In this document: positions 4,821 to 9,461 of the stretch, one piece after another
Layout: each line of letters starts with the position of its first letter
Position numbering within the stretch: position 1 is the stretch's first letter
Source: an uncultured Lachnospiraceae bacterium
GTDB taxonomy: Bacteria > Bacillota > Clostridia > Lachnospirales > Lachnospiraceae
NCBI GenBank assembly: GCA_902803015.1
Contig: CADCOL010000140.1
Span: 1 to 19,217, forward strand
Direction: 5' to 3'
Length of the DNA stretch: 19,217 nt
The notes under the pieces: generated by a model
Told to the model about the DNA's origin: nothing
Databases searched by the model: none
Seen by the model: only the letters and a program-made list of their open reading frames with translations
Made by a program: the position numbers and the translations under genes

Positions 4821-4862
4821 GCTTTATCAAAGCAAAGTATGTTTTACGCGGAGATTTCCGCG
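4821..4862 (+). promoter_or_regulatory. Leader with two small hairpins just before the ribosome site
   Basis: GCTTT-ATC-AAAGC (4821-4833) can fold at the predicted 5' end of the transcript. CGCGGA-GATT-TCCGCG (4847-4862) forms a 6-bp GC-rich stem ending immediately before AGGAGG (4864-4869). These could protect the 5' end or tune ribosome access. The structures are visible; the role is inferred. Confidence 0.4.
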
Positions 4863-4874
4863 AAGGAGGAAAAA

Positions 4875-5675
4875 ATGAAAAAGTTATTGGCAATGGGATT
4901 GTCCGTTCTTATGGTAGCTGCATTGCTTTGCGGATGTACCGGAAAGAAAGAGGGCGGCAGAGTATTTAAGCAAGGTTTTGACCTGGATTATCCCCCCTAT
5001 TCCTACATCGACGATAACGGCGAAGTAGGCGGATTCGATGTAGAGCTTTGCAAGGCTTTATGCGAGTACAAGGGATGGACTTATGAAGCAGTTCCTTTTA
5101 ACTGGGATGCAAAAGATGCGGAATTAAACGCAGGAAACTGCGACTGCATCTGGTCCGGATTTACCAAGAACGGTCGTGAAGACGAGTATGCATGGAGTAT
5201 CTGCTACTCCGACAATACCCAGATGATTATGGTTCCCGATGATTCCGACATCAAGTCTTTGGCAGATCTTGCAGGCAAGAGAGTCGGTGTCCAGACCGCA
5301 ACAAGTGCGTATGATTTACTTCAGGATAAGGAAGAAGGTCAGGGAGAACTTCGCGAAACCTTTGAAAAACTGGAAGTATATGATACTTACACCATCGCAT
5401 TCAACGATTTGCAGGCAGGCGGTATCGATGCCATCGCAATCGACGTTACCAGCGGTAACTTCTTAATGAGCGGAACCGAAGGTTATCATTTCCTTGACGA
5501 AGCATTGGGAAGCGAGCAGTATGGAATCGGCTTCCGTAAGGATGATACCGAACTTCGCGATGAAGTAAACGAAGCACTTCAGGCATTGGTTGATAACGGA
5601 ACCTACGACGAAATCGGCAAGAAATATCCGGAAATCTATGAATTCCTTTGCCTTAAGCCCTCTTCCGAAGAATAA
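4875..5675 (+). CDS. Polar amino acid ABC transporter substrate-binding lipoprotein
   Basis: This protein captures an amino acid outside the membrane and delivers it to the permease encoded next. I place the start at ATG 4875 because AGGAGG (4864-4869) sits 5 bases upstream and translation then begins with a lipoprotein signal, MKKLLAMGLSVLMVAALLCG, with lipidated Cys21. An upstream ATG at 4839 would add 12 non-signal residues and has no such support. The mature part is an SBP_bac_3 domain: FDLDYPPYSYIDDNGEVGGF, then CDCIWSGFTKNGRED and DLAGKRVGVQTATSA. The 266-residue length is normal. The closest groups bind cystine, glutamine or other polar amino acids; the ligand cannot be fixed from sequence alone. 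The C-terminus is followed by a hairpin before the permease gene. Confidence 0.92.
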   Translation: MKKLLAMGLSVLMVAALLCGCTGKKEGGRVFKQGFDLDYPPYSYIDDNGEVGGFDVELCKALCEYKGWTYEAVPFNWDAKDAELNAGNCDCIWSGFTKNGREDEYAWSICYSDNTQMIMVPDDSDIKSLADLAGKRVGVQTATSAYDLLQDKEEGQGELRETFEKLEVYDTYTIAFNDLQAGGIDAIAIDVTSGNFLMSGTEGYHFLDEALGSEQYGIGFRKDDTELRDEVNEALQALVDNGTYDEIGKKYPEIYEFLCLKPSSEE

Positions 5676-5777: not shown

Positions 5778-6425
5778 ATGACTTTTGCGACAATGCTACA
5801 GACCATGGGAAGCGGAATGTTAAAAACGATTCTGCTCTTTGTCCTGACCTTACTGGGATCCATTCCGCTCGGAATGATCGTGGTCTTTTTAAAGAAGTCC
5901 AAATTTAAGCCGATTGCGTGGCTTACGGACATTTATATTGCCATCATGAGAGGAACTCCCCTGATGCTTCAGCTTTTGGTATGGTATTTCGGACCGTATT
6001 ACATTTTCGGCTGGAGTATCCGCGGATATAAATTTCCGGCGCTTTTAATCGGTTTTATCATGAATTATGCCGCATATTTTGCGGAGATTTACCGAAGCGG
6101 AATCGACTCGATGCCCGTTGGACAGTATGAAGCGGCGGAGATTCTCGGATACGGTAAAATCCAGACCTTCTTCCGTATTATTTTGCCGCAGGTAATCAAA
6201 AGGATTCTTCCCTCGGTTACCAATGAAGTCATTACCCTGGTAAAGGATACTTCCCTTGCCTCGGCACTTGCTTATGCGGAAGTATTCTCTTTGGCAAAGC
6301 AGATTTCCGCATCCCAGACATCGTTCCTGCCGTTCATCGTTGCAGGTGTCTTCTATTTCGTGGCAAACTACGTTGTGGCATGGATTATGAAGGGAATCGA
6401 AAAATCCATGCAGTACTATAAATAA
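5778..6425 (+). CDS. Polar amino acid ABC transporter permease
   Basis: This 215-residue inner-membrane permease is of the HisM/GlnP family. It opens with LQTMGSGMLKTILLFVLTLL, has the characteristic MRGTPLMLQLLVWYFGPYY stretch, several hydrophobic helices and the EAA loop (GQYEAAEILGYGKIQTFF) that contacts the ATPase. AGAGGA (5765-5770) precedes the ATG. Only one permease gene is present, so the transporter presumably uses a homodimer. It sits between the binding protein (102 bases upstream, across a hairpin) and the ATPase gene. Confidence 0.94.
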   Translation: MTFATMLQTMGSGMLKTILLFVLTLLGSIPLGMIVVFLKKSKFKPIAWLTDIYIAIMRGTPLMLQLLVWYFGPYYIFGWSIRGYKFPALLIGFIMNYAAYFAEIYRSGIDSMPVGQYEAAEILGYGKIQTFFRIILPQVIKRILPSVTNEVITLVKDTSLASALAYAEVFSLAKQISASQTSFLPFIVAGVFYFVANYVVAWIMKGIEKSMQYYK

Positions 6426-6446
6426 TCGTTGCCGGAGGAATCGTTC

Positions 6447-7247
6447 ATGGCAGAGCAGAATTTGGAAAATCAGGAAAACCTCGGAAAAGAAGTTCTTCGA
6501 ATGACGAACATTCATAAATGCTTTGATACGCTGGTTGTTTTGCAGGATATCAATTTAACCGTACATCACGGAGAGGTGGTAAGTATTATCGGACCCTCCG
6601 GAAGCGGCAAATCCACGTTGCTTCGGTGTGCCACTTTTTTGGAGCGCATTGACGGCGGAGAGATTGAGTATCTTTCCAAAACCGCAGCGAAAACCGAGAA
6701 CAACGGGAAAGTGTCATATGCAAACAAGCAGGAGATGAAGGAGATTAAGAAGTATTTCGGACTGGTATTCCAGCAGTTCAATCTTTTCCCTCATCAGTCC
6801 GTTCTTCAGAATGTAATGGGCGCACCCGTGCATGTATTGAAAAGAGATAAAAAGGAAGTGGAAGAGGAAGCCCGCATTTTACTTCAGAAGATGGGGCTTG
6901 CCGATAAGGCGGATGCATATCCGTGTAATCTGTCCGGCGGCCAGCAGCAGCGTGTGGCCATTGCAAGAGCGCTTGCAATGAAGCCGGAAGTCCTGTTCTT
7001 TGACGAACCGACTTCTGCACTGGATCCGGAGCTTACCATAGAAGTTCTGAAGATTATCCGTCAGCTGGCGGAGGAAAAAATGACCATGGTAATCGTTACA
7101 CATGAAATGTCCTTCGCAAGAGCGGTCAGCAACCGTGTCATTTTCATGGACGGCGGAGTTATCGTGGAAGAGGGCGATCCGGAAGATGTATTCGGAGACC
7201 CGCAGCAGGAAAGAACGAAGCAGTTCTTAAAAAGTTATAAAGATTAA
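6447..7247 (+). CDS. Polar amino acid ABC transporter ATP-binding protein
   Basis: This ATPase powers the amino acid importer. From ATG 6447 it has 266 residues: Walker [10 protein letters not shown] (about 49-57), Q-loop FQQFNLFPH, signature LSGGQQQR (about 162-169), Walker [15 protein letters not shown] and H-loop VTHE. All catalytic positions are intact. I prefer ATG 6447 because GGAGG lies at 6434-6438; an in-frame TTG at 6429 would add only six residues and lies ahead of that ribosome site. A segment at about 77-98, between Walker A and the Q-loop, is somewhat long for the GlnQ/HisP family ([19 protein letters not shown]). It lies 21 bases after the permease and 14 before the next gene, all on one transcript. 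Confidence 0.94.
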
Positions 7248-7261
7248 TTCGGGAAGAAAGC

Positions 7262-8716
7262 ATGGAAGTAAAATACGTCCTGATGAATCCGACCGGAAAC
7301 CGAACCGTATTGGTGGAAACTCCGGTAAAGAAAAGTCAGTATCCGCAAATTGCAGAATGTTTGATGAAAGCAGAACCCACAGCCGAGCAGGTGGGTTTTG
7401 TTGACTTTACGGATGCATCCTGCGTGAAACTTCATATGGCTGGCGGAGAGTTCTGCGGAAACGCAACCCTGTCGGCAGCGGCCCTGTCCGTAAAACGGGG
7501 GATTTGCGAAAGTCCCGTAAGAATCAGAGTCTCCGGCGCAAAGAGTGGATTAAGCGTTGAATTAAAAAACACCAATGCAGATACCGTCAAAGGACTTGTA
7601 AAAATGCCCGCTCCCTTGGAAATCCGACAGGTGGGTGTGAATCTGGCCGGGAAAGAGTATTTTCTTCCGGCAGTGATTTTTGAAGGAATCACGCATCTGA
7701 TTCTAAGCGGAATCGGGATTGCAAAAAAGCAGGCGGAAAAATATGCAAAGCAGTGGAGCGAAGAGTTAAATGCACCCTGTCTCGGACTGATGTTTTATGA
7801 TTCGGCGAAGAATAAGTTAAAGCCGCTTGTGTATGTTCGTAAGCCGGAAACACTCTTTTGGGAGCATTCCTGCGGAAGCGGTTCGGTGGCGGTTGCCGCA
7901 TATCTTAATCACGCCGGAATCAAAAAGGACGCTTATGATTTCGCGGAACCCGGAGGAAGAATCCGCGTATTGAAAAAAGGAAAGAGCTTTTATCTCGAAG
8001 GAAGCACGAAAGTCGAGAAAGAGGGCATTTGTGAGATGGAAGCCGGAAAAGCGGGCGGAAAGAAAACTTCCAAAACCGCCGGGAGCAGTTCTTACGATAA
8101 GCGCATGGAAATCATCCGCGCCTTTGAGAAGGAGTACGGAACGGATTATACCTGCTATCTCCATCATGAGAATGCATGGCAGCTCCTCTTTGCGACCATC
8201 ATGAGCGCACAGTGTACCGACGAGCGCGTCAATATGGTCACAAAGGATTTATATGTAAAATATCCCGACCTTCAATCCTTTGCCGATGCGGATTTAAAGG
8301 AGCTTGAAAAGGATATCCACTCGACGGGCTTTTATCACAACAAAGCAAAGAACATTATCGCATGTGCGAAGAAACTCATAGAAGATTATAACGGAGAAGT
8401 ACCGTCGGATCTTGAAAGCCTGACCGCCCTTCCCGGAGTCGGAAGAAAAACCGCAAACGTGATCCGTGGCAATATTTATCATATTGACAGCATTGTTGTG
8501 GATACGCATGTTAAGAGAATCAGCAGAAAACTGGGATTTACCGAAGAGGAAGACCCGGTCAGAATAGAATTTGATTTGATGGAGAAAGTTCCGAAAGAGT
8601 ACTGGATTTTAATCAATATTCATTTTATCCGTTTGGGAAGAACCGTATGTAAGGCACCGACTCCGCGTTGCGGGGAGTGTTTCTTAAAGGATTTGTGCCC
8701 GTCGTATAAAGGATAG
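7262..8716 (+). CDS. DapF-fold racemase/epimerase-like domain fused to endonuclease III
   Basis: One uninterrupted 484-codon frame carries two unrelated enzymes. Residues 1 to about 258 resemble diaminopimelate epimerase/histidine racemase proteins, with both catalytic cysteines in place: Cys65 in MAGGEFCGNAT and Cys204 in EHSCGSGSVA. Such enzymes invert an amino acid alpha-carbon without cofactor. A Gly/Lys/Ser linker (about 260-277) leads into a full endonuclease III (about 278-484): LLFATIMSAQCTD, helix-hairpin-helix LPGVGRKTANV with Lys396, Asp414 in VVDTHVKRISRKLG, and the cluster ligands Cys463, 470, 473 and 479. That half removes oxidised pyrimidines from DNA. An internal ATG at 8105 lacks a nearby ribosome site. 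The gene follows the transporter ATPase by 14 bases, so the racemase may act on the imported amino acid. Both domains are secure; the racemase substrate is inferred. Confidence 0.88.
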   Translation: MEVKYVLMNPTGNRTVLVETPVKKSQYPQIAECLMKAEPTAEQVGFVDFTDASCVKLHMAGGEFCGNATLSAAALSVKRGICESPVRIRVSGAKSGLSVELKNTNADTVKGLVKMPAPLEIRQVGVNLAGKEYFLPAVIFEGITHLILSGIGIAKKQAEKYAKQWSEELNAPCLGLMFYDSAKNKLKPLVYVRKPETLFWEHSCGSGSVAVAAYLNHAGIKKDAYDFAEPGGRIRVLKKGKSFYLEGSTKVEKEGICEMEAGKAGGKKTSKTAGSSSYDKRMEIIRAFEKEYGTDYTCYLHHENAWQLLFATIMSAQCTDERVNMVTKDLYVKYPDLQSFADADLKELEKDIHSTGFYHNKAKNIIACAKKLIEDYNGEVPSDLESLTALPGVGRKTANVIRGNIYHIDSIVVDTHVKRISRKLGFTEEEDPVRIEFDLMEKVPKEYWILINIHFIRLGRTVCKAPTPRCGECFLKDLCPSYKG

Positions 8717-8803: not shown

Positions 8804-8911
8804 ATGATTAATTTTCACAATAAAAAAGCAAAACAGATTCTTGCCATCATCATCATTGTGGCGCTTGTCATTGCAATGGTGATTCCTACGATTTCTTATT
8901 TTGCAAGGTAA
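8804..8911 (+). CDS. Small single-pass membrane protein, 35 residues
   Basis: ATG 8804 opens a 35-codon frame ending in TAA at 8909-8911. The peptide starts with a basic MINFHNKKAKQ and continues with one hydrophobic helix, ILAIIIIVALVIAMVIP, then TISYFAR. This is the layout of a tail-in membrane peptide. GAAGGGA (8788-8794) stands 9 bases before the ATG, and a near-consensus promoter lies upstream, so it is the first gene of its transcript. The next ribosome site (AAGG at 8905-8908) is inside its last codons and the next ATG is 4 bases after its stop, which suggests translational coupling. I do not recognise a named family and assign no function. Confidence 0.65.
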   Translation: MINFHNKKAKQILAIIIIVALVIAMVIPTISYFAR

Positions 8912-8915
8912 GAAA

Positions 8916-9461
8916 ATGGAACGCGGAATCGTGATGGCCGGTTATGCCGGAAATGCGGGTGCGGCAAAATTGATTGCCGAAAACGAGGTTGCTTTGAAGA
9001 ACCGTTTTCCGGGATTCTTTGTCGATACCGTCGGGACATTTGCAAAAGATGCCTATGATGAAGCGGCAGAAGATTTCCTGCGGGAAAAGGAAAACATTTA
9101 CCGGGTTGCGGAATGCGTAAAAGTATCCGACGGCGGGGTTTTTGCGGCTCTCTGGGAAATGGGAGAATCCGAACGAATCGGATTTGCCGTGGAGTTAAAA
9201 CAGATTCCCGTGCGGCAGGAGACCATTGAAATCTGCAATTTTCTGGACATCGATCCGTACAGATTGTATGCAAAGGGATGTATACTGATTCTCGCCGAAT
9301 ACGCGGAAAGGCTTGCCGGCGATTTGGAAAAAGCGGGCATTCCGGCGGCGGTAATCGGAAGGGAGCATTCCGAAAAGAAACGTGTGGTTTATTACGATGA
9401 TGAAGAAAGATTCCTGGAACCCAGAAAGGGAGATTCCATTTTGGAAACGAATCGAAACTGA
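8916..9461 (+). CDS. AIR synthase/HypE-like protein, C-terminal domain only
   Basis: This 181-residue protein resembles the C-terminal half of the PurM/HypE/SelD superfamily: SDGGVFAALWEMGE (about 71-84), GFAVELKQIPVRQETIEI (about 89-106) and NFLDIDPYRLYAKGCILI (about 108-125). The ATP-binding N-terminal domain of those enzymes is absent, and so is the C-terminal cysteine motif of true HypE. It therefore cannot be assumed to catalyse either reaction. The start is ATG 8916, served by AAGG at 8905-8908. A TTG at 8901 would lengthen it by five residues but overlaps the preceding gene. It follows the 35-codon ORF by 4 bases and precedes the Lrp gene by 23. Intact start, ribosome site and codon use argue against a decaying pseudogene. 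Confidence 0.75.
   Translation: MERGIVMAGYAGNAGAAKLIAENEVALKNRFPGFFVDTVGTFAKDAYDEAAEDFLREKENIYRVAECVKVSDGGVFAALWEMGESERIGFAVELKQIPVRQETIEICNFLDIDPYRLYAKGCILILAEYAERLAGDLEKAGIPAAVIGREHSEKKRVVYYDDEERFLEPRKGDSILETNRN

Follow-up and report, generated by a model that had tools for sequence, protein, structure and literature searches.

Results

A racemase-like domain and endonuclease III in one frame

The 19,217-nucleotide stretch of DNA analysed here (the window; positions 1 to 19,217 of contig CADCOL010000140.1, assembly GCA_902803015.1) comes from an uncultured Lachnospiraceae bacterium and carries, on its forward strand, a gene in which a racemase-like domain is joined to endonuclease III (Nth). 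A single open reading frame (ORF) runs from ATG 7262 to TAG 8716 and encodes 484 amino acids (aa) with zero internal stops. It comprises a histidine-racemase-like domain (7262..8029, residues 1-256), a flexible Gly/Lys/Ser linker (8030..8092, about residues 257-277) and an endonuclease III domain (8093..8716, residues 278-484 plus the stop codon). A preliminary description of this DNA had proposed such a frame, with both catalytic cysteines of the racemase, the catalytic Lys/Asp pair and four Fe-S cysteines of the repair enzyme, and a linker of this composition; each of these features is present, as detailed below. The fusion is a new domain architecture built from two known enzyme kinds, and no account of a racemase-endonuclease III fusion was among the papers listed in our searches of the open literature.

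The same architecture recurs well beyond the window. From a search of 5.8 billion proteins we took the best 120 of 3222 matches, with candidates of about 266-847 aa for which ordinary Nth of 211-216 aa was not eligible; besides the window's own cluster, these include at least 22 fused clusters that are full-length or nearly so, at 55-71% identity, and at least three that are N-truncated. Among 31 genomes of the genus, seven hold the intact fusion (G000, G120, G399, G406, G415, G419 and G422), with completeness given as 100% for G120 and G406; in the rest, G423 has the two parts out of frame, G414 has the racemase apart, 21 have nth with no racemase match and G398 has no match. In a sample of 397 genomes from the family, 18 have the racemase, and a fusion-length frame is seen solely in the two members of the genus that the sample contains. 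The preliminary description took as contrary evidence any close relative in which a stop codon and a separate ribosome site divide the two genes. None was found among the 31 genus genomes: G423 is broken inside a linker repeat and has no nth start codon there, and in G414 the genes are apart, but the racemase is distant (about 40% identity) and another gene lies between.

All six active-site motifs occur in every one of 29 fused sequences that are complete or almost so (22 clusters and seven genomes, some of them near-copies), and the N-terminal motifs are missing from the three N-truncated clusters. In pairwise comparisons of the seven genome copies, for many pairs of which synonymous divergence (dS) is saturated, identity in the racemase half is 66-86% at second codon positions and 35-57% at third; in the Nth half the corresponding values are 87-93% and 41-58%. 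Because second positions are so much more conserved than third, we conclude that both halves are under purifying selection.

The racemase half resembles histidine racemases

Residues 1-256 correspond to a cofactor-independent racemase whose closest solved relatives, by matches in the PDB, are the histidine racemases HisR and CntK. The two catalytic cysteines, Cys65 and Cys204, are present and the predicted structure has a DapF-like fold. Glu63, Glu201 and Glu42 are invariant in 19 fused sequences and match the proposed imidazole-binding glutamates of these enzymes (HisR Glu65 and Glu206; CntK Glu46, equivalent to HisR Glu49). Residues and fold together suggest that this half most likely acts on histidine or a near analogue. 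HisR of Fusobacterium nucleatum (PDB 9CR1/9CR6) has Ala210 where the fusion protein has Gly205. According to PMC11602996, it is also a single-domain protein in another gene context, whereas the fusion racemase adjoins ATP-binding cassette (ABC) importer genes and carries Nth. A search for a staphylopine-type opine dehydrogenase (PF10100) matched none of the seven fused genomes, and the control genomes in that search gave no match either.

Several further observations concern this domain. Two racemase relatives are themselves fused: P0285 (524 aa) to an ABC ATPase, the usual neighbour of the racemase, and P0212 (387 aa) to a portion of IMP dehydrogenase. When window positions 7351-8100 are compared with the fused locus of G399 (L103), DNA identity is 51-60% in the racemase half against 61-88% in flanking 300-base windows; the proteins encoded alongside share 88-94% identity. 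One of these two lineages may have exchanged its racemase half, or that half may have diverged fast.

The C-terminal half is a complete endonuclease III

The C-terminal half scores above the TIGR01083 nth cut-off (225 versus 211.7 bits, NCBIfam). In endonuclease III, Lys120 and Asp138 (Escherichia coli numbering) have catalytic roles. Their counterparts here, by alignment to 2abk, are Lys396 and Asp414, invariant in the same 19 fused sequences, and the four Fe-S cysteines Cys463, Cys470, Cys473 and Cys479 follow the pattern C-x6-C-x2-C-x5-C. Judged by its residues, this half is a complete endonuclease III, with all catalytic and Fe-S positions in place. The whole domain, its catalytic Lys/Asp and its [4Fe-4S] cysteines align with the Nth enzymes of E. 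coli (2ABK) and Geobacillus (1P59/1ORN); the fused Nth differs from these in beginning inside a longer polypeptide and in having no start codon where nth normally begins.

No second Nth was found in the seven fused genomes. Their other Nth-like matches, at 26-30% identity, lie in frames of 362-420 aa (the size of MutY), with none in G419, and the one that we checked, which belongs to the window's genome, scores as MutY. On the evidence of these genomes, the fused Nth is the cell's only copy.

A variable linker replaces the nth start

The linker has seven different lengths, 7-57 aa, in the seven genomes, every one of them in frame. It is mostly Lys-rich and unconserved, and is predicted to be disordered, with a predicted local distance difference test score (pLDDT) below 50 at residues 261-275 of the window's protein. 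Such a variable, disordered linker argues against a fixed domain interface; the predicted structure of the fusion has a predicted template-modelling score (pTM) of 0.53, so that the relative placement of the domains is not confident. Two close kin of the G423 copy, P0010 and P0026, are in frame and differ in the number of KKETV repeats, which suggests repeat slippage as the source of the linker's variation. A further protein, P0039, loses the fusion frame within or close to the linker.

Unfused nth genes of the genus begin with Met (once with TTG) 17 aa ahead of a YGT motif. That start has been lost in the fused genes, six of seven of which have no ATG nearby. The sole ATG near the old nth start is that of the window (8105..8107, forward strand), which has no match of at least four bases to AGGAGG at 4-11 nucleotides (nt), and no GTG or TTG near the old start has a Shine-Dalgarno (SD)-like match in any of the seven fused genes.

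The fusion gene follows amino-acid importer genes

Immediately upstream in the window, on the same strand, are genes for a polar amino-acid ABC importer: a substrate-binding protein (4839..5675), a permease with a HEQRo_perm_3TM domain above cut-off (5778..6425) and an ATPase (6429..7247) that ends 14 nt ahead of the fusion gene. Upstream of the fusion, these importer genes and AHCY recur in all seven fused genomes, AHCY and the binding-protein gene being set apart by extra ORFs in L101 and L102; six of the seven have an LRP gene downstream within the range viewed (the exception being L102). The importer's specificity could not be read from profiles: the binding protein passed no cut-off, the best model being that for lysine/arginine/ornithine (135 of 256 bits), followed by cystine (94 of 312), glutamine (86 of 303) and histidine (68 of 459). 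Its PDB matches are equally mixed, and we therefore infer no substrate for the importer. Gathering-level Rfam matches at 14 loci included no T-box or riboswitch near the racemase genes. Downstream in the window, a gene at 8901-9461 encodes only the AIRS_C half domain (186 aa), a relative at L108:4013-5059 being a full AIR-synthase-like protein of 348 aa, and a short hydrophobic ORF (about 35 aa, at about 8804-8911) lies between it and the fusion gene.

In other genera, represented by 11 loci taken from 16 genomes with the racemase, the order binding protein-permease-ATPase-racemase is found at seven (L089-L094 and L096). L095 has a divergent importer, L099 has the binding protein only, and L097 and L098 have neither; no nth was found at any of the 11. 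Within the genus, G414 has the three importer genes and racemase in that order, followed by a DUF4080 radical-SAM gene overlapping the racemase gene by 4 nt and, 12 nt on, nth. Two other genus loci (L086 in G413 and L114 in G424) lack the racemase; there, nth is immediately preceded by the genes of another, distantly related amino-acid ABC importer, with an overlap in L114. At L084 (G421), nth was missed in the gene-order listing and found in the genome search.

In this family, DUF4080 is a common upstream neighbour of nth. In the 69 genomes present in both the DUF4080 and the nth listings, and with gaps measured between alignments rather than genes, it lies directly upstream in 48 among the matches listed, and one match spans both in 13 more; as most of these spanning matches hold stops, they cannot all be fusions and may be neighbours that share a frame. 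Of the eight genomes counted as having DUF4080 elsewhere, G318 and G045 are really spanning, G347, G242 and G310 fall narrowly outside the limits, G274 has it 2 kb off, and two have it on another contig or strand. DUF4080 gave no match in the seven fused genomes or G423, and is present in eight of the 31 genus genomes.

Nth relatives are fused to many partners

Fusions of DUF4080, a B12-radical-SAM protein, to Nth make up 25 of the best 120 long Nth relatives (the query being the Nth part of such a fusion), and one occurs in the same family (G059, locus L022). Like the racemase-Nth protein, they have a C-terminal Nth; the partner differs, being a common upstream neighbour of nth, and DUF4080 has no function in Pfam. 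Single proteins that we checked join Nth relatives to a histidine phosphatase, an arginine repressor, a deaminase and Ham1, and others to an X-type DNA polymerase and, with Nth first, to a cyclophilin. For DUF4080 alone has the partner been shown to be a former neighbour. Because Nth relatives join so many partners, and the racemase-ATPase fusion joins usual neighbours, adjacency rather than shared function best explains the pairing. As a separate observation, a PF01497 periplasmic-binding domain is in the same chain in many Nth clusters (P0133-P0194), four named sources of which are Acidobacteria, Holophagaceae or Geothrix.

Discussion

The reading that we favour, at a probability of about 0.72, is that the gene makes one bifunctional polypeptide, a racemase, likely of histidine, tethered to an active Nth of which the cell has no other copy, and that this is an inherited operon fusion with independent domains. 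The preliminary description had offered a chance operon fusion or a real bifunctional protein, and of these two options the evidence favours the operon fusion. The importer-racemase genes would once have been separated from nth by a radical-SAM gene; loss of that gene, taking with it the stop codon of the racemase and the start codon of nth, would have let the racemase run into nth in one step, with the deletion ending within the racemase tail and the nth head. The fusion would then have been inherited while its linker lengthened and shortened in frame. The racemase would work on an amino acid that the adjacent importer handles and the Nth half, separately, on oxidised pyrimidines in DNA, as in ordinary base excision repair. 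Expression of the repair enzyme would then probably follow that of the importer operon.

A number of observations weigh against parts of this account. The N-terminal half reaches 138 of 300 bits on the model of CntK (NF033599), the histidine racemase of staphylopine synthesis (PDB 6JIS/6JIW), and 128.4 of 400 on that of HisR (NF052224); as it falls below both of these NCBIfam equivalog cut-offs, we file it only as histidine-racemase-like. The absence of DUF4080 is not specific to fusion: once the seven fused genomes and G423 are set aside, 15 of the remaining 23 in the genus lack it as well, and four of the seven fused genomes are less than 90% complete. The G414 racemase, at about 40% identity, groups with standalone racemases, and we therefore do not regard G414 as the direct ancestor. 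Given these 15 unfused genomes and that distant racemase, the deletion step is one that we infer. In the Nth tree (from which P0120 was left out, its motif not being found, and with 17 of the family loci as outgroup), a branch with 100/100 support sets apart 16 fused rows, that of G423 among them, along with the distant fusion P0112, and a single fused clade is not rejected (approximately unbiased test, p-AU 0.449), nor is it proved; the fused racemases form one group at the modest support of 86/80. The trees of both halves are consistent with one origin, and the fusion was probably born once in the genus. Fused racemase halves have also diverged down to 48% identity while staying joined, and a tether kept over such divergence could be useful. 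In G423 (L107:9337-10799) the racemase frame ends within a KKETV-type linker repeat and nth continues in another frame in which the first half of the Nth core has no ATG, GTG or TTG ahead of it or within it; this may be a genuine break or a collapsed repeat in the assembly. Finally, the SD test is failed by the start at 7262 and, overall, by three of the seven fusion genes' listed starts and nine of 18 unfused nth starts, and candidate internal starts exist in G422 (L101; an ATG at codon 254 with GGAGG 11 nt upstream) and in G415 and G419 (GTG or TTG codons with 4-base SD matches).

That the racemase domain serves Nth, by dimerising, by positioning or regulating it or by sensing amino-acid state on its behalf, is possible but unsupported, and we consider it unlikely. 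DapF activates RppH. The E. coli RppH-DapF complex (PDB 6d13) shows a DapF fold partnering a nucleic-acid enzyme, HisR is dimeric in crystals (PMC11602996), and the fusion has been kept across a group of genomes with both active sites intact. Set against this are the unconserved linker, of 7-57 aa and predicted to be disordered, the low pTM, the many unrelated partners of Nth relatives and the absence of nth beside the racemase at all 11 other-genus loci. Its more specific form, in which the racemase would be a regulatory or oligomerising subunit and repair would be covalently tied to amino-acid or thiol state at the two-cysteine site, is drawn by analogy and seems quite unlikely. Decidedly unlikely, in our estimate, is the production of two separate enzymes from the one frame by internal initiation or linker proteolysis. 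Proteases could plausibly cut a disordered linker rich in Lys, and the possible starts in G422, G415 and G419, like weak starts in general, are compatible with an SD test that many genuine starts here fail. In keeping with the preliminary description, no SD-like site precedes ATG 8105, but since start 7262 and half of the unfused nth starts fail likewise, this is weak evidence. Against two products, no start stands at a conserved place, ATG is missing from the region of the old nth start in six of seven fused genes, and the frame has been held through seven different linker lengths, G423 excepted.

Two simpler explanations fare worse. The N-terminal half could be the organism's diaminopimelate epimerase, of cell-wall synthesis, fused to nth: it has the same fold and weak matches to PF01678 and TIGR00652. 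On the latter, however, it scores 21.5 of 114.65 bits, its best matches are HisR and CntK, with the proposed histidine-contact glutamates invariant, and a separate DapF above the TIGR00652 cut-off is present in six of the seven fused genomes (the miss being G419, 73% complete). We therefore reject a DapF identity as very improbable; the DapF fold named in the preliminary description stands, with the domain closer to histidine racemases than to DapF. An assembly error, missed stop or frameshift joining two neighbouring genes might be suspected in a genome that is 77% complete in 330 contigs, and assemblies do contain breaks within or close to the linker, as seen in G423 and P0039. Because the same joint recurs in at least 22 further clusters and six other genomes, including two with a listed completeness of 100%, we reject such an accident as hardly credible.

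A metabolic enzyme and the apparently sole copy of a DNA-repair enzyme have thus become one protein, and the likely steps can be read in relatives: separate importer-racemase genes, a racemase-DUF4080-nth arrangement and the fusion. Since Nth relatives join many different partners, the case cautions against taking gene fusions as proof of a shared pathway. With tethers of 7-57 aa, these natural constructs are suited to asking whether such fusions are neutral or functional. Were the racemase a regulatory subunit after all, base-excision repair in this genus would be tied to amino-acid or thiol state, much as DapF partners RppH. The finding also points to an importer-linked branch of histidine-racemase-like enzymes.
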